From positions 1 to 64,000 of the IMG/VR virus record IMGVR_UViG_3300044996_000325: 64,000 nucleotides of DNA. One strand, given 5' to 3'. This document shows positions 3,061-63,912 of the stretch, one piece after another. A program made the position numbers and the translations under genes. The notes under the pieces are model-generated. The model was not told where the DNA came from and ran no database searches. It saw only the letters and a program-made list of their open reading frames with translations. How positions within the stretch are numbered: the first letter of the stretch is position 1; every line of letters starts with the position of its first letter. The DNA comes from a virus.

Positions 3061-4230
3061 TCAGTCCTTGTAGGGGTCCTCTTCGCCTTTCCCGGCCATC
3101 ATGACGACGATCGGCCACAGGCGGGTGCGGATGCGAAGGTTTTCGTGGTATCCGAGGACGGTGCTGAGCCCCCGGTAGGCATTCGGTGCTTCGTCGGCGC
3201 CGCCGCCGTAGAGGTGAACGCCCATCTTTTCGAGATAGACATTCACGTCCTGCATATTGATCAATTTCTTGGCTTGGCTGCGCGACATGGTTCGTCCAGC
3301 TCCGTGCGGAGCGGAATTGAGAGATGCGTACATCTCCGTTGTTCCGGGAATGGGCTCGACAATGGCGGATATGTCTCCCATGGAACCGCCGATGAAGATC
3401 GGCTTGTCCCACAGTGGGGTCGCTCCCTTGCGGATCACCCAGTAGTGCTCGCCCTGGATGATCTCGGACCAGGCGAAGTTATGATGGTTCGAGATCATCT
3501 CTACCGGCTTGGCGCCGAGAATGTCGAGGATGTATTCCACGACCATCTTGCGTCCCAGGGTGGCGTACATGCCAGCGAAACACATTGCCTCAAGGTAGTC
3601 ATCGAACAGCGGCGTGTTCTCTTCGAGCAGCGCTGGCGGCCCATCCATGGTGTCTTTGAAGCCAAGGATCTCCATCGTCTTCCTGGCGATTTTGTGTCCG
3701 AAACCGCGCGATCCGAAGTGGCAAGCCACCCAGACATTCTGGTCCTTGTCGTTCATGATGTCGACGTAGTGGTTTCCGCCGCCAATGGTACCTAGCTGTG
3801 AGGCTGCGAGCTGTTTCAGGTCCTTCATCAGCGGGTTCTTCCAGTCGATGCCCAGGATTTCTATCTCTCCTTTGTGGAGCGGAGACGTAGTCCCGATGCC
3901 GAAGACGATCTTCTCGCGGATCTTGGTGACCAGATTGTCGATATCGCCGAGGTCTCGTGGGCGCAGGCTGGTGCGCACCGCATAGTTTCCACAGCCAATG
4001 TCGTAGCCGACACCAGTCGGGGAGATGTGACGAGGATAGGCCACGACGCCGCCGATAGGCATGCGGTAACCTTTGTGCTTGTCGGCCATGAGGGCTCCAA
4101 ATGAGCCATCGACGGCATCAAGGCAGGCCCGGATCTGCTGATATACCGGGCTGTTCTTGTAGAAGTTCCCGTCCTCGATGTCATCCATCGGGCCAAAAAC
4201 TGTTAGGTTGGCTTCCTGCACTCGGATCAT
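3061..4230 (-). CDS. rtcB: RtcB-type RNA ligase
   Basis: RtcB joins 2',3'-cyclic-phosphate RNA ends to 5'-OH ends using GTP and Mn2+, and is known for tRNA splicing and repair. At 389 residues it is close to the E. coli length (408). Family motifs appear in order: PIGGVVAY and the metal cysteine in YDIGCG (C80), GGGNHYVDI, HFGSRGFGH, SNHHNF, and HGAGR, whose His corresponds by spacing to the guanylylated nucleophile. The start at 4230 overlaps the stop of a 51-residue gene as ATGA. Three tRNA genes lie 0.8-1.3 kb upstream in the same direction. A role in repairing tRNAs cut by host anticodon nucleases is an inference. Confidence 0.95.
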   Translation of the reverse strand: MIRVQEANLTVFGPMDDIEDGNFYKNSPVYQQIRACLDAVDGSFGALMADKHKGYRMPIGGVVAYPRHISPTGVGYDIGCGNYAVRTSLRPRDLGDIDNLVTKIREKIVFGIGTTSPLHKGEIEILGIDWKNPLMKDLKQLAASQLGTIGGGNHYVDIMNDKDQNVWVACHFGSRGFGHKIARKTMEILGFKDTMDGPPALLEENTPLFDDYLEAMCFAGMYATLGRKMVVEYILDILGAKPVEMISNHHNFAWSEIIQGEHYWVIRKGATPLWDKPIFIGGSMGDISAIVEPIPGTTEMYASLNSAPHGAGRTMSRSQAKKLINMQDVNVYLEKMGVHLYGGGADEAPNAYRGLSTVLGYHENLRIRTRLWPIVVMMAGKGEEDPYKD

Positions 4231-7096: not shown

Positions 7097-7755
7097 CTTG
7101 GTGCCATCCTTTTTGGTTTCCAGATGTCGCCATCTTGGTGCCATCCTTTCTTGTACATCATTTTCTCGAGAGAGATGACATCGAGATTGACCTTCTCGCG
7201 TGTGGCAACGACGATCATATCTGCGGGAGCTCCCCGGAGAACCCTGCTGATGAGGTCCCAGAACGGCTTGTCCTTGTTCACAACTGCCCAGAAGTCATCG
7301 TCCGTGAGCTGGTAGCAGAATGGGCAACACAGCCGTTCATCCATACATCCGCCGTTGTCACGCCAGTCATGCCGCTGGCCGATGAAGTGCCGGCAGCACT
7401 CGCATTTTCGTGCGGTGCGGTTTGCTTCTTCCAGGAAATACTCCTGTACGGGCTCTTCGTCCGGGATCTCTTCCGGCCACTCGTGCTTGAGCTCGATGAT
7501 GTTTTCTTCGAGCTGGATAAGGGCGTCTTCAGGAAGGTCGTCCAGGAGCTTGATGATCCGACCAGTGACAGGGTAGGTTTCAGGCGTCGGAAACTTGAAC
7601 GACCGCAGATCGTCATAGATGCGATTGAGGAGCCGCTGGCATTCCAGGAGCTGTATGGTCTCGTTCAGCGCCGCTGACCTTTCCCTTGCTGTCGGAAGAA
7701 GGCCTTTATCCAGCTTGTCAATGAGGGCATGAACCTTCGAGATCGGTTTCTTCAT
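7036..7755 (-). CDS. Cys-rich protein, C-terminus altered by duplication
   Basis: This 239-residue protein starts at 7755. Residues 1-100 are helical and acidic. The middle holds a likely zinc-binding cluster (CECCRHFIG, then CCPFCYQLT). A copy of the dispersed palindrome encodes FPTPETY (7578-7593). The last 25 codons are read through a 37-bp tandem duplication. Without it the frame would end as DIWKPKA, so the tail after KKGWHQDGDIWKPK is probably new. No family is recognised. Confidence 0.7.
   Translation of the reverse strand: MKKPISKVHALIDKLDKGLLPTARERSAALNETIQLLECQRLLNRIYDDLRSFKFPTPETYPVTGRIIKLLDDLPEDALIQLEENIIELKHEWPEEIPDEEPVQEYFLEEANRTARKCECCRHFIGQRHDWRDNGGCMDERLCCPFCYQLTDDDFWAVVNKDKPFWDLISRVLRGAPADMIVVATREKVNLDVISLEKMMYKKGWHQDGDIWKPKRMAPRWRHLETKGVKSSWASSPSS
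7075..7149. repeat. 37-bp tandem duplication
   Basis: The unit TTTGGTTTCCAGATGTCGCC... occurs twice without a mismatch at a period of 37 bases (7075-7111 and 7112-7149). Since 37 is not a multiple of three, it shifts the frame of the host gene. It also duplicates the start signal of the tiny membrane gene. Confidence 0.9.
7578..7593. repeat. Dispersed palindrome, copy 4 (in CDS)
   Basis: TTTCAGGCGTCGGAAA, one difference from the consensus. It encodes FPTPE on the minus strand in the gene at 7036..7755. Confidence 0.85.
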
Positions 7756-8144
7756 GGCATCTCGTCTCCTTGTGGATCGATGGTGATGATTTCGGCGCCG
7801 GCATCAATTGCTTTCTTTGCGCAGGAAGCGCAGACCGGGAAGGTCGTCCTTTTCGGAGATCCTTCCGGATCCGTTTTCCTGGCAAACAGGGTCGCCGGTT
7901 TCTTGCACTGTACCCATTTCGGCTCACCAAGATTGAATGCTCCGAGCTCGAGCATGTACCCGCAACACGGGATCAACTCAGGCTGGATTGTCCTTGCCAT
8001 GAATGAATTCAGGATCATGCCAATCATCGTGTTCATGCGGTTTTCGTCGTAGATTGGCAGTCCATATTCCACGTCGATATTCCTGGCATATTCATTGAGG
8101 TCAATAATTACTTGCCGGGCAATCTCTCTCTCGGTATCTGCCAT
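7752..8144 (-). CDS. Putative zinc-binding protein
   Basis: The protein has 130 residues and its start at 8144 has AGGAGACCACT upstream. Cysteines occur as PCCGY, CKKP and CASCAKK, a spacing that could bind zinc. The first half is helical (REIARQVIIDLNEYARNID). The stop overlaps the next start by ATGA. No named family is recognised. Confidence 0.72.
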   Translation of the reverse strand: MADTEREIARQVIIDLNEYARNIDVEYGLPIYDENRMNTMIGMILNSFMARTIQPELIPCCGYMLELGAFNLGEPKWVQCKKPATLFARKTDPEGSPKRTTFPVCASCAKKAIDAGAEIITIDPQGDEMP

Positions 8145-8153
8145 AGTGGTCTC

Positions 8154-8429
8154 CTATTCTTTTCTCGTCATGCGCACGCGAGTGGGGCGTCCGCCGCAGG
8201 CCAGTGCATTCATGTGCGACAGCGCCGCTTCTTTGTGGAAGTGGTCGGCAATGTGTTCCAGCTGGCCCTTCTCGGTTCGTCCGTAGATGGACCAGCAGAT
8301 CAGATCGTAGTCATCTTCTTCGCACTTGACAAAGTCTACGCCGAGAGGGCTGAAGTAGTTTTTGACTGGCTCCCCATCCTTGTCCAGGAGTTTGCAGGGG
8401 TGCATTTCGTAGGATTGGTATGTGATCAT
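8154..8429 (-). CDS. Unknown protein, 91 residues
   Basis: The start at 8429 overlaps the radC stop by ATGA. The junction ATTGGGGTTCTCATGATC is identical to the one in front of rtcB. The sequence is a mixed alpha/beta domain with HIADHFHKEAALSHMNALAC near the C-terminus. No family is recognised. Confidence 0.7.
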   Translation of the reverse strand: MITYQSYEMHPCKLLDKDGEPVKNYFSPLGVDFVKCEEDDYDLICWSIYGRTEKGQLEHIADHFHKEAALSHMNALACGGRPTRVRMTRKE

Positions 8430-9088
8430 GAGAACCCCAATCCGCGCTCTTTGAGCGAAACATGTCTTCCGTTACAGATGATCAGGTGGTCGAGGACGTC
8501 GATATCCATCAGTTTTCCAGCTGATACGATGGCCCTTGTTACTGCGACATCGTCCGGGCTTGGAGTTGGGTCTCCGCTTGGGTGGTTGTGAACGACGATG
8601 ATCGCTGAAGCGAGATACTGAAGCGCCGGACGGATTACTTCGCCGATCTTGACCTGGGAAGAGTTCACAGTTCCGGTGCAAATCGTCACAATATCGATGA
8701 CGACGTTTCTCGTGTTCAAGAGGATCGTTCGGAGCTGTTCTTTTTCCAGTGTGCTCATATCGTATGTCACCAGCGCCGCTGCATCAGCCGGGCTATTGAT
8801 GGTGACGCGTTCAGTTGCCTGGTTGATGCGAGAGCCGAGAGCCATGGACGCCTTGATGCGTGTTGCGGTGGCTATCCCGATGCCTGGCGTCATGGTGAGT
8901 TGGGGAACTGCGGCGTTGCAGATCCTGGCGATGCTGCCGCCAAAGCGTTCGAGAAGATTGTTGGCGATCTCGAGCTGATCGTCGCCGCCAATCACTGCCG
9001 CGAGCAGCTCGGGCGTTGTGCACATGGACGGATCGTGAGATATCCGGGTGTCCGGGCGATCGTGGATTGCGATTGTTTTCAGGCTCAT
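8426..9088 (-). CDS. radC: RadC/JAB-domain protein
   Basis: This 220-residue protein starts at 9088, where AAAGGAG precedes the ATG. It has a helix-hairpin-helix-like region (TMTPGIGIATATRIKA) followed by a JAB/MPN-type domain with HNHPSGDPTPSPDD, the metal-binding signature of the RadC family (DUF2466), and LDHLIICNG near the end. Phages and mobile elements often carry RadC proteins near recombination genes. The biochemical role is unsettled. It overlaps its neighbours by ATGA at both ends. Confidence 0.92.
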   Translation of the reverse strand: MSLKTIAIHDRPDTRISHDPSMCTTPELLAAVIGGDDQLEIANNLLERFGGSIARICNAAVPQLTMTPGIGIATATRIKASMALGSRINQATERVTINSPADAAALVTYDMSTLEKEQLRTILLNTRNVVIDIVTICTGTVNSSQVKIGEVIRPALQYLASAIIVVHNHPSGDPTPSPDDVAVTRAIVSAGKLMDIDVLDHLIICNGRHVSLKERGLGFS

Positions 9089-9435
9089 ACGGTCTCCTTT
9101 TTCGATCTCGGATATGAATGATTGCACCCATTACAGATCAGGTATTCCCTGTCACTTGCGTCGATGTACGGGTTGGTGCAACCGCACTTTGGACACGGCG
9201 AGCCATCGATGTCTTGAATATTGTCGTACTCGTTACCGTCAAGGATCCATTGTGTTACTTCGGGCTTGTACTTTCCGCCGCGCCACGCTTCTTCGACATC
9301 GCCGGCAACTTCGGCGCTCTTACGATCGGACCATGCTCCAAGCACATAGCTATGGCTCTCGCGATTTCCGTGTCTGTACATAGTGACAACATAAACTTTG
9401 ATCTTGATCTTTTCCAAGAGATGAATGGTCGTCAT
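9085..9435 (-). CDS. Zinc-ribbon protein, unknown
   Basis: The protein has 116 residues, with AAGGAGAGATCC upstream of 9435. The N-terminal half is a small beta domain (KIKVYVVTMYRHGNRESHSY). The C-terminus holds a zinc ribbon: CPKCGC, then CNGC. It overlaps radC by ATGA. Confidence 0.75.
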   Translation of the reverse strand: MTTIHLLEKIKIKVYVVTMYRHGNRESHSYVLGAWSDRKSAEVAGDVEEAWRGGKYKPEVTQWILDGNEYDNIQDIDGSPCPKCGCTNPYIDASDREYLICNGCNHSYPRSKKETV

Positions 9436-9462: not shown

Positions 9463-9807
9463 CTACTCAACGGATCGTGTTCTCAATTCGAACAATGACC
9501 CGGAATATTTGCATGCCGGGTATGACTTGCACCCCAGGAAGATGGCGCCTGTCTGCCGGTTGGCGCGTTCGACGAGCTCTGATCCACATTTCGGGCAAAC
9601 GGCGCCGCCCACCTGCTCACTCTCCCGGGGTTGATCATTCTTGTACAGGGGTTCGACAGGTTCCTGTGGACCACCGAAGTGAGAGTTCAAGCAGCTCAGT
9701 GCCGTCCAGGCTTTATCCTGGTCTCTTGCAAATTCTTCCATGTGCTTGATGAAGATCTCGGTGAGATCGGACACAGCTTCAAGAGGGGTGATAGCGGTCT
9801 TGCTCAT
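9463..9807 (-). CDS. Topoisomerase-type zinc-finger protein
   Basis: The protein has 114 residues. The C-terminal half has the C4 zinc finger seen at the end of bacterial topoisomerase I (CPKCGSELVER, then GCKSYPACKYS). The N-terminal half is helical and unrelated. It probably contacts single-stranded DNA, but nothing else of a topoisomerase is present. The start at 9807 overlaps the upstream gene by 29 bases. Confidence 0.8.
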   Translation of the reverse strand: MSKTAITPLEAVSDLTEIFIKHMEEFARDQDKAWTALSCLNSHFGGPQEPVEPLYKNDQPRESEQVGGAVCPKCGSELVERANRQTGAIFLGCKSYPACKYSGSLFELRTRSVE

Positions 9808-13170: not shown

Positions 13171-13602
13171 CTAGAAGTTCACGATCTCTTCGGCGGGTTC
13201 TTCAACCGGAGCGTCTTCGTGGACTTCAGCCGGGGCGTCGCCGTTCTCGGTGTGGCGCGTGCCGCCGAGGAAGCGGACGGTCTGGGCGGTGACTTCGAAG
13301 TTCGCGCGAGCGGAGCCGTCCTGCCCCGTCCAGATGCGCGGTCCACCGGTGGCGGCGTCGGAGGTCAGGCGGCCTTCCACCAGGACCTTCGAGCCTTTCT
13401 GCAGGTACTTGTTGCAGACTTCCGCCATCTTGCCCCAGACGCTGATGCGGAACCAGGTGGTCTCTTTCACGGTCTCGCCGGCGTTGTTGGTGTACTGCCG
13501 GTTGGTGGCGACCGAGAAGTTGGTCACCGGCTGGCCGCCCGGGGTGTAGCGCATTTCCGGATCACGACCGAGGTTACCAGCGAGGATCAAGGTTTGAAAC
13601 AT
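13171..13602 (-). CDS. ssb: Single-stranded DNA-binding protein
   Basis: This 143-residue SSB starts at 13602 behind AAAGGAGAACAAC. The OB-fold core is complete: LILAGNLGRDPEMRYTPGGQ, FSVATNR, TTWFRISVWGKMAE, KGSKVLVEGRL. A short acidic tail ends EEPAEEIVNF, a variant of the usual DDDIPF-like tip that recruits partner proteins. The core closely resembles SSBs of Anaerolineae (Chloroflexota), which is the best host hint in the window, though it rests on memory and not on a search. It has its own promoter (13707-13735). Confidence 0.95.
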   Translation of the reverse strand: MFQTLILAGNLGRDPEMRYTPGGQPVTNFSVATNRQYTNNAGETVKETTWFRISVWGKMAEVCNKYLQKGSKVLVEGRLTSDAATGGPRIWTGQDGSARANFEVTAQTVRFLGGTRHTENGDAPAEVHEDAPVEEPAEEIVNF

Positions 13603-13706
13603 GTTGTTCTCCTTTGGGCTCTGCGCCCTGAATGTGGGTTTACTCACGGCTTTGAACTCCGTGAGCTCTCTTATCACCAGACGTCAGTCATCTGGTGGGC
13701 GTACCA

Positions 13707-14170: not shown

Positions 14171-14821
14171 CTACCAGGGACCGTAGAGCATCTGCTCGTT
14201 GCGGAGCTCTGCCTTGCGCTCCTGCTCGGCCTGCCACTGCTCGGAGGCTTCCTTGTCTGCGATGCACTGGACGCACTCGGCATGTGGCTGATGGGTGCTG
14301 TCCAGCTGGATCGGGCACTGCGTCTGGCAGATGTAGTGATAGTCGCAGTACACACTGTCGTTGTGTGCCTTGGTGGCTGTGGCGCCGCACCAGCAGTTGA
14401 GCAGGCGAGTTCGCTTGCTCATCAGAATGCAACCAAGGATATTCTTACCAACCCAGGTGTCATTCTCCCAGACTGCGCCCCAGAACTTGTCTCCCCACGT
14501 ATTGCCTTCGATCAACGCGTCCGGGAAGGTGCTCTTGAGCATCTCGCCAAGTTGCGGGTCATCGAACTTGGCCCAGACGAGCTGGGTCATGATGCCGATG
14601 CGCAGCATGTTCCAGCGCGGCCTCATGGTCACGCCGCGACCAAGGCGCTTGGCCTTGCCTGGCGTGGTCGCGAGGCGGATGAGTTCACGCTCTACTATGT
14701 TGAGCGTCTTGGCTGCCTGGTAGGCGTGCTCAACAGATGGGTAGGTGACGCCGTCGTACTTGATCGCGCATGGGTAGAAGTTGGACAGGAAGTCATATTG
14801 ACCTCCGAAGTTGACGATCAT
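14171..14821 (-). CDS. NADAR-family N-glycosidase with Cys-rich tail
   Basis: This 216-residue protein starts at 14821 behind AAGGAG. Residues 1-140 form a NADAR/YbiA-like domain: YDFLSNFYPCAIKYDGVTYP, SVEHAYQAAKT, WNMLRIGIMTQLVWAKF. Known members remove ADP-ribose from guanine bases in DarT/NADAR modules or cleave riboflavin intermediates. The last 75 residues add a separate Cys/His-rich segment (CWCGATATKAH, CDYHYICQTQC, CVQCIADKEA) not typical of the family. In a phage a role in reversing host ADP-ribosylation is a plausible inference. Confidence 0.85.
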   Translation of the reverse strand: MIVNFGGQYDFLSNFYPCAIKYDGVTYPSVEHAYQAAKTLNIVERELIRLATTPGKAKRLGRGVTMRPRWNMLRIGIMTQLVWAKFDDPQLGEMLKSTFPDALIEGNTWGDKFWGAVWENDTWVGKNILGCILMSKRTRLLNCWCGATATKAHNDSVYCDYHYICQTQCPIQLDSTHQPHAECVQCIADKEASEQWQAEQERKAELRNEQMLYGPW

Positions 14822-14822
14822 G

Positions 14823-15056
14823 TCAGTTCTCCTTTTTCTCGAATGTGAGGCGAGCGACGCCGCAGGCCTTGGTGCGGCTGACGAGCTCGAGGTTCTTCTG
14901 GCATGCAGCCCAGGCGAGGGCTCGGGTGGGCTCAGTGGGGCAGCCCATTGCGACAAGCTCGGGAGAGATGCTCTCGAGCTTGATCGGTTCCTGCCCGTGG
15001 AACGGCATTCCACGGACAGCGTACGGACGAGCTTCCTTGATGACGATGGTGTACAT
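14823..15056 (-). CDS. Unknown protein, 77 residues
   Basis: The start at 15056 has AAAAGGAGAAGATC upstream, and the stop is one base from the NADAR start. It begins MYTIVIKEARPYAVRG and looks like a small alpha/beta domain. It is probably co-translated with the NADAR gene. No family is recognised. Confidence 0.7.
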   Translation of the reverse strand: MYTIVIKEARPYAVRGMPFHGQEPIKLESISPELVAMGCPTEPTRALAWAACQKNLELVSRTKACGVARLTFEKKEN

Positions 15057-15083: not shown

Positions 15084-15581
15084 CTAATGGCCGAGGATCT
15101 CAACGATCTTCTCTCTCGGCGCATGAGAGAAGGCGATGAATGGATACTCGGTGTCGACATCGTTCAGGCCATTGAAGAGCCCGACGTTCTCTTCCACGAT
15201 GCGCTTGTTTTTCTTTGGCACGTATGCGCCAGTGACAACCCCGATCGCATACTCGCTATCTGACACGATCTCGAAGCGAACGTGCTCATGGAGCTTTGAT
15301 TGGGCCAGCTCGTAGCGCCGAACAAGTCCCTTGATGTAGAACAGCGCCGCATGAACAGCAAGCAGCTCAGCGATGTTATTCGTATTGTGTCCATCAAGCA
15401 GGGTCTTGTCGTCAAAGAAGGACCGATCGAACTTGAATGGATTTGGCAACCTCTTGCCGTCGAATGTGAATTCTTTGACCTCGCCGCTATTCCGCTTGAT
15501 ACCCAGGGACCAGTACATCTGAGCCCCTTCCTTGCCGTTGGCAAGGCAACCTCCGTCCACGTACAGATAGATCGTTTCCAT
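15084..15581 (-). CDS. RNase H-like protein
   Basis: The protein has 165 residues and its start at 15581 follows AAAAGGAGAATTGTC. The RNase H fold signatures are visible: YVDGGCLANG (first catalytic Asp), NTNNIAELLAVHAALFYI (catalytic Glu) and VSDSEYAIGV (second Asp). The C-terminus ends PFIAFSHAPREKIVEILGH, so the usual final motif with its last Asp is absent or replaced. It may remove RNA primers during phage replication, or have lost activity. Confidence 0.8.
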   Translation of the reverse strand: METIYLYVDGGCLANGKEGAQMYWSLGIKRNSGEVKEFTFDGKRLPNPFKFDRSFFDDKTLLDGHNTNNIAELLAVHAALFYIKGLVRRYELAQSKLHEHVRFEIVSDSEYAIGVVTGAYVPKKNKRIVEENVGLFNGLNDVDTEYPFIAFSHAPREKIVEILGH

Positions 15582-16494: not shown

Positions 16495-16653
16495 TCATTG
16501 CCCGACGATAAAATTTGAGATCGTGTGGATCGCGCCAGTTGATACGAGGATCCTCTCGAGGCACAATCCAACGCACAAGATGATGAAGCAGATCACGACG
16601 AAGTCGAATGCCATCGACAGGCATCCTTGCGCGTCATCGCCCCATCCGTTCAT
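16495..16653 (-). CDS. Small membrane protein, 52 residues
   Basis: The start at 16653 overlaps the upstream stop by ATGA, with GAAGGTGG before it. A central hydrophobic stretch (FDFVVICFIILCVGLCL) is a membrane helix. No family is recognised. Confidence 0.68.
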   Translation of the reverse strand: MNGWGDDAQGCLSMAFDFVVICFIILCVGLCLERILVSTGAIHTISNFIVGQ

Positions 16654-17066
16654 TCGCCACCTTCGTCCGGATCGCACGATAGAACGCGATCGTATTTCAC
16701 AACCTGTTTTTCCGGATCGTCGCCAGGGGAGCTGGTCAGGAAGCGTCCGTCGCTCGGAACAATAACGGACAGCATGTTCCCTGTATCTGGCACGCTGCTA
16801 TCAACGGCCCAGTCGGGTATCGGTCCATCCAGAACGAGCGTCATCCCCTTCATCTCGCCGACCTCGTACTTCATGACCGGCTTTACCCATCCCTTGCCCC
16901 CGCATTCGGGGCACATGCTCACGAGGGACGGGTGGATACCGAGGCCCATACAGGTTTTGCACTCCCGGTACCCACGGAACCTGCGGATGATGCCGGGAAG
17001 GACGACGGCGATCGCGCCGATGGACAGGATGATGGCGACAACGCCAAGAGCGGTCACCTGGTTCAT
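16650..17066 (-). CDS. Membrane-anchored zinc-ribbon protein
   Basis: This 138-residue protein has an N-terminal membrane anchor (LGVVAIILSIGAIAVVLPGI) followed by two CxxC pairs of the DnaJ type (CKTCMGLG and CPECGGKG) that should bind zinc. The rest is a soluble acidic domain. It overlaps both neighbours by ATGA-type junctions. Function unknown. Confidence 0.75.
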   Translation of the reverse strand: MNQVTALGVVAIILSIGAIAVVLPGIIRRFRGYRECKTCMGLGIHPSLVSMCPECGGKGWVKPVMKYEVGEMKGMTLVLDGPIPDWAVDSSVPDTGNMLSVIVPSDGRFLTSSPGDDPEKQVVKYDRVLSCDPDEGGE

Positions 17067-17551: not shown

Positions 17552-17895
17552 TTGACCTCCAGCAGCTTCTTGAGATATTCTTCGGGATGCCTTTCCGCGA
17601 TCGCCGCCCTCAGGATGATGGCGTAGTTGATCATGTCGAGGATGGTGTCGTCGACGGTCTCGTCCTTGACGGAGGGACCGCCGGGAGTTGTGACCAGCTT
17701 CCCGATCCTGGCCAGCTTGTCAGCCATTCGCGTGAGAATGCCGACCTCCATGGGGACATTCATCTGCTCGACCAGGCGGAAGTTCCGCAAGGCGTCTTCG
17801 CTGGCGCCGTAGTCGGCGTTCTTCGCCTTGATGATCTCGTACGCCTGGGCGCACGACAGCTGATGAATGCGACTGAGCTGTTCCCGCTTGATCAT
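17548..17895 (-). CDS. DUF1599 (Nmad1-like) protein
   Basis: The protein has 115 residues and starts at 17895 behind GGAGCAGATGAA. The pattern AKNADYGASEDALRNFRLVE, EVGILTRMADKLARI and SVKDETVDDTILDMINYAII marks the nucleotide-modification-associated DUF1599 family, which is distantly MazG-like. It may act on nucleotides or help modified-base synthesis. It overlaps bfr by ATGA. Confidence 0.85.
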   Translation of the reverse strand: MIKREQLSRIHQLSCAQAYEIIKAKNADYGASEDALRNFRLVEQMNVPMEVGILTRMADKLARIGKLVTTPGGPSVKDETVDDTILDMINYAIILRAAIAERHPEEYLKKLLEVK

Positions 17896-18359
17896 TTCAT
17901 CTGCTCCGCCAGGAACATGTTGATGCCCATATGAGAGATCTGGTCGAGGCTTTCCTCGAGGTCGTTGACATGCCGCTCTTCATCGTGGAGGATGGTCTCC
18001 ATGATCTCCCTGGTGCCGTTGTCGCGCTCGGAGACGCAGATGGCGATGGCAGCGTTGTAGTCGATGACTGCCTTGACCTCGGAAGCCCTGTCGTTCGTGA
18101 GCATACCCTCGACCTGAAAGCCGATATTGATCGGGTCGAGACTGGAAACGATGGGCTGTCCCTCGAGAAACAGGATGCGGTCGATCTCCGTTTCGGCGTG
18201 CCCCATCTCCTCGATGGCGCGCTTCTCGAAGTACTCCATCAGCCGCTTGTATCCCCAGTTCTCGCACATCTTGGCGTGCACCATGTACTGGTTGACGGCT
18301 GCAAGCTCTCCAGCGAGGAGAGTGTTCAAAACTGTGATTACTTTCGGTGATCCCTTCAT
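17892..18359 (-). CDS. bfr: Bacterioferritin
   Basis: This 155-residue protein matches bacterioferritin along its length. All ferroxidase-centre ligands fall at the E. coli numbers: E18, E51, H54, E94, E127 and H130, and the haem ligand M52 is present. It starts MKGSPKVITVLNTLLAGELA and keeps RILFLEGQP. Bacterioferritin stores iron as a 24-mer and protects against peroxide. A phage-borne copy is unusual. It starts at 18359 with AAAGGATAGTC upstream and overlaps the DUF1599 gene, so it belongs to the leftward operon and is not a stray insertion. Confidence 0.94.
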   Translation of the reverse strand: MKGSPKVITVLNTLLAGELAAVNQYMVHAKMCENWGYKRLMEYFEKRAIEEMGHAETEIDRILFLEGQPIVSSLDPINIGFQVEGMLTNDRASEVKAVIDYNAAIAICVSERDNGTREIMETILHDEERHVNDLEESLDQISHMGINMFLAEQMK

Positions 18360-18392: not shown

Positions 18393-18524
18393 CTATTGCC
18401 TCACCCCAACAAAGATGCCGAACGCTTTCGCAACACTGGCGATCGCCCAGATGACCCCTCCGACCATGCCGAGAACGATGACCAGGCCGAGCATGCTGTA
18501 CAGGTAGTCGACGAATTTCTTCAT
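18393..18524 (-). CDS. Small membrane protein, 43 residues
   Basis: The start at 18524 follows CTGGAGGCATC and overlaps the upstream stop by ATGA. It has one long hydrophobic segment (LGLVIVLGMVGGVIWAIASV). No family is recognised. Confidence 0.7.
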   Translation of the reverse strand: MKKFVDYLYSMLGLVIVLGMVGGVIWAIASVAKAFGIFVGVRQ

Positions 18525-18868
18525 GATGCCTCCAGGAATAGCTTGAGGGTGTCCATGTCGTAGAAGACCCTCATGCCGGTGTCGATTGCCATCTGGCGCT
18601 CCTTACGGGCTCCTCCACTTCGTTCCCATCCCTCAATCATCAGAATAGCGTCGCAGCGCTGCAGGAGCTCGAGATCTCCTTCGAGCCATACTTCATCCGG
18701 GGCCGCTCCACCGAGACCAGATGTGTTCTTGTGGGGGCACAGGGCAACCCCTCCGTTCTGCCACACGAACAGCGCCGCATCCTCTGCTGAGCGAATATTC
18801 TGCCTGACGAAGTACTCTCCTTTGTCACTGCGATATGGTCCTGCGATGTAGACGACCTTTTTGCCCAT
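18521..18868 (-). CDS. DUF4406 protein (deoxyribosyltransferase-like)
   Basis: The protein has 115 residues and starts at 18868 behind GGAGGACT. It shows VVYIAGPYRS, VRQNIRSAEDAALFVWQNGG, ALCPHKNT, PDEVWLEGDLELLQRCDAIL and GWERSGGARKE, the pattern of DUF4406 and related nucleoside 2-deoxyribosyltransferase folds. A nucleotide-related role is likely but the substrate is unknown. It is the first gene of the large leftward operon from the 18907-18935 promoter. Confidence 0.88.
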   Translation of the reverse strand: MGKKVVYIAGPYRSDKGEYFVRQNIRSAEDAALFVWQNGGVALCPHKNTSGLGGAAPDEVWLEGDLELLQRCDAILMIEGWERSGGARKERQMAIDTGMRVFYDMDTLKLFLEAS

Positions 18869-18906
18869 AGTCCTCCAAAGATCAAGTAAAGTGCCTTCGA
18901 ACAAAA

Positions 18907-21157: not shown

Positions 21158-22663
21158 ATGGCTAAACTTTCCTACGCGGACGAGCAAATGCTTACCCTGG
21201 CCAGGCGGGAGAATGGGGGCTTCCACCTGGCTGCCAAATGGTATCTTCGTGGATGGGAGCCGCTTTCGTACCAATACGTCTGGCATATGGCTCCCTTCTA
21301 CAACACGACCGCTGTCTGGGGCATTGGCTCTGGAAAGACGTCCATCGTGACAGCGTCGAATATCATAGATTGCATTACTCTTCCTGGCTTCAAGGCTCTC
21401 AATGCTTCGATAACCGCAAAGCAGGCAGAGCTCGCTTTCGAGATGCTCGATAGCTGGCGCGAGGGCAATTCGCGCCTCGACCGCTTGATCACGAATATTA
21501 CACTTCGACCGTGGCCTATTGTCGACTTCTACAATGGCTCCCAGTATGAATTTCGTACTGCTGGACAGGGAGCAAAATTCATCCGTGGCCATGAATACGA
21601 TCGAGCAAACTACGACGAGGCCGGTCTCGACATGGATGGAGAGGCGATCAAGGTTATTCGCGGTCGTCTCCGCGGGCGCCGCCCTGATGGCTCCCCGCGC
21701 ATGGCTCGCCTTGATTGCACAGGAACGCCGTCCCCGTCCGTGTGGTTCAAGCACCGCTTCGATATCGGCTTTCGTGGAACTCCAGAAGCAACAGAGGAGA
21801 CGCTCAAGGACTATTTCTCGATGCGCGTCTCCACGTACGACAATACGATGCTGACAGCCGATCAGATCCGGATGATGGAGAAAGAATATCCTCCGGAAAT
21901 GATCGACATCGAGCTCGGCGGCATATTCCCCGATTACGGCATGGGGTTCTTCCCCCTGAACCATATCAATGCCTGCGCCGACAGTTCGATCCTGGACGAG
22001 ATCTACACCGCACTTCGCCCGGATCACGGTTCTCCGAAGCCCGGGTACACCATTGTCGAATGGCCAAGGATCGGCATCGTTGAGTTCGAGCTCCCGGCAT
22101 CCCCGTCCGGTCTGTATATCATCGCCGGCGATCCTGGCACAGGAGCTCCTCCTTCGCGGAATGCGCCGGTTGTCATGGTCTACGATCTCTCCGTTCATCC
22201 GAAGAAGATGGTCGCCTTCTGGTGGGGATCCGCGAAGGGGTCGTACCGTCCATTCCTCGAGAAGTACCAGTACTTCTGCCAGAAGTATTTCCCAGTGGCG
22301 CGCGGCGTCGACACAACATCGACACAGAAGGCGATCGATGAGCTGGGTTTCGAAGAGATGGGTATCAATATCGACCCGATCTCGTTCCAGAACCTCAAGG
22401 ACGCCATGCTGAACGCCCTGTCCCTTGATATCACTGGCCACAACATCTGCTATCCCCCGATCCACGGGCTGATCAATCAACTCGCGATCTATCGGAAGGA
22501 AGACGACAAGAAGCTCGACCAGGACCTCGTCATGACCATGGCGCAGATCTCGCACCTATCCAGGTTTGTTCGAGAAGGCTACAAGACACCAGCTGGAGGT
22601 CATATCGCCAAGCCGAGAAGTAGATCTGCTCGAACGCGCCACGTCCCATCGAGGGCAAGATGA
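21158..22663 (+). CDS. terL: Terminase large subunit
   Basis: This 501-residue protein has an ATPase with Walker A WGIGSGKT (54-61) and Walker B NYDEAG (151-156). A C-terminal nuclease region contains IIAGDPGTG and VDTTSTQKAIDELG. TerL drives ATP-dependent DNA packaging and cuts the concatemer. It follows the HTH/membrane gene without a gap and overlaps the next start by ATGA. Confidence 0.95.
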   Translation: MAKLSYADEQMLTLARRENGGFHLAAKWYLRGWEPLSYQYVWHMAPFYNTTAVWGIGSGKTSIVTASNIIDCITLPGFKALNASITAKQAELAFEMLDSWREGNSRLDRLITNITLRPWPIVDFYNGSQYEFRTAGQGAKFIRGHEYDRANYDEAGLDMDGEAIKVIRGRLRGRRPDGSPRMARLDCTGTPSPSVWFKHRFDIGFRGTPEATEETLKDYFSMRVSTYDNTMLTADQIRMMEKEYPPEMIDIELGGIFPDYGMGFFPLNHINACADSSILDEIYTALRPDHGSPKPGYTIVEWPRIGIVEFELPASPSGLYIIAGDPGTGAPPSRNAPVVMVYDLSVHPKKMVAFWWGSAKGSYRPFLEKYQYFCQKYFPVARGVDTTSTQKAIDELGFEEMGINIDPISFQNLKDAMLNALSLDITGHNICYPPIHGLINQLAIYRKEDDKKLDQDLVMTMAQISHLSRFVREGYKTPAGGHIAKPRSRSARTRHVPSRAR

Positions 22664-63025: not shown

Positions 63026-63253
63026 CTAAAACATTTGAGCTTGCTTATTGAACTGGTTCAAGGCACGCTTGATGTACGGAACATCCAGCTCATGGGCACG
63101 CACGACCATCGTGTGATTGAAGGCGGCGTAGTATTTTCGGTGCTTGCTCGGAACATCGTTGCGGAAGCGTTCCCAGTCTGCCTTCTGCTCTGCATGGCTC
63201 CCGCTGATGATCACCTTGACTTTGTGCGGTGATACAGCAATTGCGTCGATCAT
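63026..63253 (-). CDS. Unknown basic protein, 75 residues
   Basis: The start at 63253 follows GGAGGTCTACAACCT and overlaps the ThiF-like stop by ATGA. It looks like a small alpha/beta domain (VKVIISGSHAEQKADWERFR). No family is recognised. Coupling to the ThiF-like gene suggests a shared pathway. Confidence 0.7.
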   Translation of the reverse strand: MIDAIAVSPHKVKVIISGSHAEQKADWERFRNDVPSKHRKYYAAFNHTMVVRAHELDVPYIKRALNQFNKQAQMF

Positions 63254-63912
63254 AGGTTGTAGACCTCCAGGCGGTCCATCTTGATGTTGTGGTACACAAA
63301 CTTGGAGTGCTGCTCGCCGCGCAGGATATCGCGTACTGCCTTGCCGATGTGGCCGGCAGCGATGCAGGCGGTGTAGATGGTTGCCTTCTCGGTGCAGACG
63401 ACGTCGGGAACATTTTTCTCGTCTTCCTCGGAGATCATGCGGTCGTAGCCATGAAAGCCGGTATCTTCCAGGTCCATGTTCACGATGTAGAGGTGGAAGA
63501 TCTCGGCGGACATGCGGGCATCCAGGTACCAGCCGCGGCATGTCTTCTTCACAGCTTCCCAGATCTGTTTGCGCGCCGTGATACTGTCCACTGCAGAGAT
63601 GACAATGTCATCATCGAGCAGCGTATTCTCGTCGACGCGCTCCTGAACGATCTGCGGCAGCGCTTCGTCAGAAAAGAGCATCGTCTGTCCGGCAAGCGCT
63701 TCCGCCTTGTTGGTGTGCACACTGCCGACCGTATGGAACTGGGTTGGGAGGTTGACGTTGTCGACCCTGTCATCATCGAAAATCGTCAGGAAACGAACAC
63801 CCATCTTTGCCAGGGTGATCCCGGTGATGGCGCCGATCCCACCAGCCCCAATCAACCCGATCCGCATGGTCGGTGGTACGGTAAAGATCCCCATATGTCG
63901 AGTGTGGTCCAT
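63250..63912 (-). CDS. ThiF/E1-like adenylyltransferase
   Basis: The protein has 220 residues. A Rossmann nucleotide-binding loop GLIGAGGIGAITGITLAKMG (residues 18-37) is followed by FDDDRVDNVNLPTQF and a C-terminal CTEKATIYTACIAAG, typical of ThiF/MoeB/E1 enzymes that adenylate ubiquitin-like C-termini. Short versions occur in phages and mobile elements with unknown partners. The start overlaps the preceding stop as TAATG. Confidence 0.88.
   Translation of the reverse strand: MDHTRHMGIFTVPPTMRIGLIGAGGIGAITGITLAKMGVRFLTIFDDDRVDNVNLPTQFHTVGSVHTNKAEALAGQTMLFSDEALPQIVQERVDENTLLDDDIVISAVDSITARKQIWEAVKKTCRGWYLDARMSAEIFHLYIVNMDLEDTGFHGYDRMISEEDEKNVPDVVCTEKATIYTACIAAGHIGKAVRDILRGEQHSKFVYHNIKMDRLEVYNL

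Follow-up and report, generated by a model that had tools for sequence, protein, structure and literature searches.

Four NADAR subtypes from E. coli and phages, YbiA and T4 gp30.3 included, strip ADP-ribose from guanosine in DNA (PMC11125620). E. coli YbiA and the T4 phage NADAR hydrolyzed guanosine-ADP-ribose in vitro but failed to relieve cells of DarT1 toxicity (Cihlova et al. 2024, PMC11125620); what determines the ADP-ribosylated substrate of a given NADAR in the cell was stated there to be an open question. Guanosine ADP-ribosylation on RNA was reversed by all NADARs tested (PMC11833690), while Aravind and colleagues argued that phage NADARs mostly target soluble ADP-ribose derivatives (PMC9503650). 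In the solved complex of the Phytophthora nicotianae NADAR, ADP-ribose is contacted by E43, K50, R79, D86, W89, R93, E125, D130, and W133 (PMC11543638). We found no publication on phage NADAR-zinc fusions in the open-access literature. Here, we describe a NADAR gene with a Cys/His-rich C-terminal tail from a 65,084-base viral contig (IMG/VR record IMGVR_UViG_3300044996_000325), of which the first 64,000 nucleotides (hereafter the window) were analyzed.

The window encodes a NADAR with a C-terminal Cys/His tail

The gene and its two parts are as follows.

14171..14821, minus strand: whole gene of the NADAR, YbiA-type by sequence and model, with a C-terminal Cys/His tail (216 amino acids and a stop)
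14402..14821, minus strand: NADAR domain, residues 1-140 (Pfam match, model, and residue mapping by phmmer alignment)
14174..14401, minus strand: Cys/His-rich tail, residues 141-216 (CxC-x13-CxxHxxCxxxC-x7-HxxHxxCxxC, followed by a predicted helix at residues 181-213)

The existence of this combined open reading frame was confirmed. Its ATG lies at 14821, one base past the TGA of the preceding gene (14823..15056), and a ribosome-binding-like AAGGAG is found shortly upstream. An alternative in-frame start at 15160 is unlikely, since homologues begin near M1 and the added part would overlap other open reading frames. The in-frame codon score of the tail was 0.29, as compared with 0.10 for the 95th percentile of off-frame windows and 0.15 for the 5th percentile of in-gene windows. 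Because this score falls within the range of the phage genes and above the off-frame windows, the tail is coding sequence, and the extra segment of about 75 residues described in the initial annotation is a genuine in-frame part of the protein.

The core matched PF08719 (NADAR) over residues 8-140 (E 8.8e-23; 81.8 bits against a curated cut-off of 35.1), TIGR02464 (81.2 bits against a cut-off of 73.7), and PHROG 1017 (2.2e-40). It was modelled by AlphaFold with a pLDDT of 94-99, and this model was similar to E. coli YbiA (Z 18.2), to the ADP-ribose-bound P. nicotianae NADAR (8BAU, Z 16.9), and to the DarT1-linked G. lovleyi NADAR (8BAT, Z 8.1). When the contact residues were mapped via the phmmer alignment to 8BAU (index offset 2), E31, K38, R62, W70, R74, E105, D111, and W114 of the window protein were found to correspond to eight of the nine ADP-ribose contacts, the equivalent of D86 falling in a gap. 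The catalytic or ADP-ribose-binding residues E43, K50, E125, D130, and W133 of the P. nicotianae enzyme are E31, K38, E105, D111, and W114 in the window protein. E31, K38, D111, and W114 are invariant in all 73 viral NADARs compared (window counted), and E105 and W70 are present in 72 of them. By its alignment with E125 of 8BAU, E105 supplies the glutamate at the last-strand catalytic position that marks the YbiA subfamily, whereas the aspartate that marks the DarT1-linked BC4488 NADARs at the catalytic position is absent. By its profile matches and modelled fold, the protein is a YbiA-type NADAR, which upholds the NADAR identity assigned at the outset; no loss of the catalytic residues was seen in the alignment. 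The enzyme is most likely competent, judging from these residues, and hydrolysis of guanine-linked ADP-ribose is likely by analogy with the family members.

The initial annotation had also connected the enzyme with DarT-type systems. This specific tie appears weak, as DarT (PF14487) had no match in the 65-kb record, NADAR flanks included, the fold is closer to YbiA than to the G. lovleyi protein (Z 18.2 vs 8.1), and YbiA and the T4 NADAR gave no DarT1 rescue (PMC11125620). Because of this failure to rescue DarT1 toxicity, we do not take the role to be specific to DarT, although an anti-defence role in general is plausible.

Properties of the tail

The tail contains seven cysteines and four histidines (C143, C145, H153, C159, H162, C165, C169, H177, H180, C183, and C186), arranged with CxC, CxxH, and CxxC pairs. 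The chance of finding at least seven cysteines in 75 residues was 4e-7 with the composition of 22 genes of the phage and 1.6e-5 with that of its minus-strand genes alone. In the full-length AlphaFold model, residues 181-213 form a helix and residues 144-173 are of low confidence (pLDDT <50); the tail modelled alone was likewise of low confidence (mean pLDDT 62.5). From the Cys/His spacing we infer metal binding; one or two zinc ions probably organize the fold of the tail. The core is basic (pI 9.4), whereas the tail is acidic (pI 4.9; 5 K/R vs 11 D/E). By analogy, the tail may bind nucleic acid, as was initially suggested, but its acidity argues against this.

The tail matched no Pfam family up to an E value of 5, PF01396 (topoisomerase C4 ribbon) and RNA-binding families included. 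Tail-only searches found no relative by tblastn in the phage records, in the viral contigs (a search reaching close relatives only), or among PDB sequences, and because there is no detectable relative, the function of the tail cannot be read from homologues.

Genomic neighborhood and the phage

The following genes lie near the NADAR gene or elsewhere in the window.

14823..15056, minus strand: short gene directly upstream, ending one base before the start codon of the NADAR
15084..15581, minus strand: RNase H-like gene (PF00075, 3e-07), in the same strand run and upstream of the NADAR
13171..13677, minus strand: single-strand DNA-binding protein (SSB) gene, two genes downstream of the NADAR (PHROG 44, 4.3e-38)
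3061-4230, minus strand: RtcB RNA ligase (PF01139, 7.8e-63)

The RNase H-like and SSB neighbors are weak evidence of function, because tail-less NADARs also adjoin replication genes: no enrichment of such genes was seen around tailed NADARs in comparison with 14 tail-less loci, and the tail-less controls were likewise near polymerases and helicases.

Neither DNA nor terminase searches revealed a related phage. The terminase-like protein (21158-22660, plus strand) had no counterpart by tblastn among the 50,697 phage records, and the phage therefore seems distant from described groups. It carries four tRNA genes, and the best phage matches of its RtcB were Microcystis, Tunturiibacter, and Sinorhizobium phage proteins (41-47% identity). 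Several further genes were noticed, all on the minus strand. A ThiF/E1-like protein (63250-63912, 4.9e-17), to which parts of the PADLOC E1-E2 models match, occurs in the same phage as a RadC-type JAB protein (8426-9088, 1.7e-39). A ferritin-like protein is encoded at 17892-18359 (PF00210, 6e-33), small Cys-rich, zinc-ribbon-like open reading frames of the same strand run lie at 7752-8144, 9085-9435, 9463-9807, and 16650-17066, and a DUF4406/DUF1937 protein, which we take to be nucleoside deoxyribosyltransferase-like, is found at 18521-18871.

Cys-rich tails on other phage NADARs

Phage NADARs are ordinary, with matches in 685 of the 50,697 phage records. Among 80 viral loci fetched by profile, nearly all stop within about 20 residues of the NADAR domain. 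Two near-identical ones (L072 and L077) bear a tail with five cysteines and a few others bear other additions; L057 looks like the published NADAR-DUF4326 architecture (PMC7824862). We also scanned 2.9 million viral contigs for NADAR cores with a CxCG or CxxC behind them, exact motifs being required, and obtained a handful of C-terminal Cys-rich tails (L088, L095, L127, L203, L196, and L135), while the pattern hits L098, L116, and L117 were not NADARs. CxxC tails are found on L088, L095, L127, L203, and L072/L077; that of L088 is DnaJ-like (CxxCxGxG, score under the cut-off), and that of L095 combines CxxC...CxxC with many histidines. The tail of L135 matches PF01396 (5e-15, over the cut-off), the DNA-binding C4 zinc finger of topoisomerases. 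In E. coli topoisomerase I, domains at the C-terminus are reported to bind single-stranded DNA (PMC4678816).

The tailed NADAR of L095 (3734-4375) is flanked by a RecJ-like gene on one side, with one small open reading frame between, and by a DNA polymerase III alpha gene on the other. A Nuc_deoxyrib_tr match was also seen among the neighbors of tailed NADARs, probably at L072:6098-6556.

Cys-rich tails thus recur on phage NADARs and are rare. In pairwise alignments judged by shuffling, the window tail resembled none of the other Cys tails. A tree built from 130 NADAR cores, few of whose forks were supported, put the seven tailed rows in seven places, with no more clustering than shuffled labels gave. 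To judge from these comparisons, the tails look separately gained, though a single origin is also possible. When 84,980 cellular genomes were searched for the CxxC-tail pattern as an exact motif, 52 stretches were recovered, and no NADAR with an in-frame Cys-rich tail was among them.

Proposed function and alternatives

The explanation that we tentatively place first, at somewhat below an even chance, is that the window protein is a competent YbiA-type NADAR N-glycosidase of a tailed phage which undoes host ADP-ribosylation and is aimed by a zinc-tail adaptor. The enzyme would remove N-linked ADP-ribose that ADP-ribosyltransferase defences of the host had attached, guanine in nucleic acid being its most likely site, and the Cys/His tail, probably zinc-folded, would take it to its target, either nucleic acid or a partner protein. 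The adaptor is favored because other phage NADARs bear Cys-rich tails at the same place, that of L135 being a DNA-binding C4 ribbon. Counting against the explanation as a whole are the acidity of the window tail and its lack of detectable relatives, the absence of protection from DarT1 by YbiA and the T4 NADAR, the replication genes that also adjoin tail-less NADARs, and the argument for soluble ADP-ribose derivatives (PMC9503650). A bolder form, which we regard as doubtful, would be that phages have repeatedly and separately fused zinc modules to the C-termini of YbiA-type NADARs so that ADP-ribose is removed at single-stranded DNA or at the replication machinery, the window tail being an undescribed zinc domain.

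The acidity of the tail would also suit protein binding, as supposed in an explanation that is unlikely but deserves weight, namely that the enzyme breaks down soluble ADP-ribose-derived immune signals or toxic metabolites (cADPR variants and others) and that the tail serves for protein binding or for packaging into the virion. This agrees with the contextual argument of PMC9503650 and with the NAD salvage, ADP-ribosylglycohydrolase, KptA, cREC, and Nudix genes near control NADARs; however, the published NADAR activities cited concern guanine-ADP-ribose and riboflavin intermediates and none of them such signals.

RtcB at 3061-4230 and the four tRNA genes, together with the reversal of guanosine ADP-ribosylation on RNA by NADARs (PMC11833690), could point to RNA repair, in which guanine-linked ADP-ribose would be cleared from tRNA or mRNA. 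We consider this quite unlikely, as RtcB is 10 kb distant from the NADAR and the Pfam search with the tail hit no RNA-binding family.

It is improbable that the phage acquired a YbiA-like N-glycosidase of riboflavin intermediates for metabolite damage control, with a tail of little consequence. The protein does score over the cut-off of TIGR02464, named riboflavin biosynthesis intermediates N-glycosidase, but this model presumably covers YbiA-type proteins generally, so its name leaves the substrate unsettled; moreover, no riboflavin gene was recognized among the phage genes examined, and the keeping of NADARs by hundreds of phages suggests a viral benefit.

An antitoxin mimic, in which the acidic tail joined to the hydrolase would bind an ADP-ribosyltransferase toxin of the host and block it, is highly improbable, since the tail has no sequence similarity to known domains (Pfam, PDB sequences), even though its acidity, the layout of DarG2 (a hydrolase with a DarT2-binding domain; PMC11543638), and AdfB, a phage antitoxin mimic that binds DarT (PMC11481870), would suit it.

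The NADAR gene of the window is a real but modest variant within the known NADAR family, for which counter-defence is plausible. The point worth following is that phage NADARs carry different Cys modules, one of them a DNA-binding ribbon, which offers natural tailed and bare versions for testing substrate choice and makes the targeting of a phage NADAR by a zinc module a testable idea.

Comparison with known NADARs

The viral-contig NADAR of L135 resembles the window protein in its core (49% identity) and in bearing a C-terminal Cys module, but its Zn_ribbon_Top1 tail is recognized as a C4 ribbon (5e-15) and shares no similarity with the window tail. T4 gp30.3 is likewise a phage-encoded NADAR and is active in vitro, whereas its group has histidine at the catalytic position (PMC11125620), where the window protein has glutamate. 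The DarT1-linked NADARs (DarG1; G. lovleyi 8BAT, E. coli C7) share the superfamily fold (Z 8.1). In contrast to them, the window protein is without the N-terminal extension that is thought to bind single-stranded DNA and has glutamate in place of aspartate, and no DarT was found in the record. The guanine-ADP-ribose hydrolase of P. nicotianae (8BAU) is similar in fold (Z 16.9, rmsd 2.3, 143 residues aligned), with eight of nine contacts kept; it differs in D86, whose equivalent lies in a gap, and no part of it matched the Cys/His tail. Finally, E. coli YbiA (2B3W) is similar in fold (Z 18.2, rmsd 3.2, 148 residues aligned, 34% identity), and the window protein agrees with its subfamily in having glutamate at the last catalytic position and no N-terminal extension; members of the YbiA family, however, are bare domains according to PMC11125620, while the window protein adds a Cys/His tail of 75 residues.
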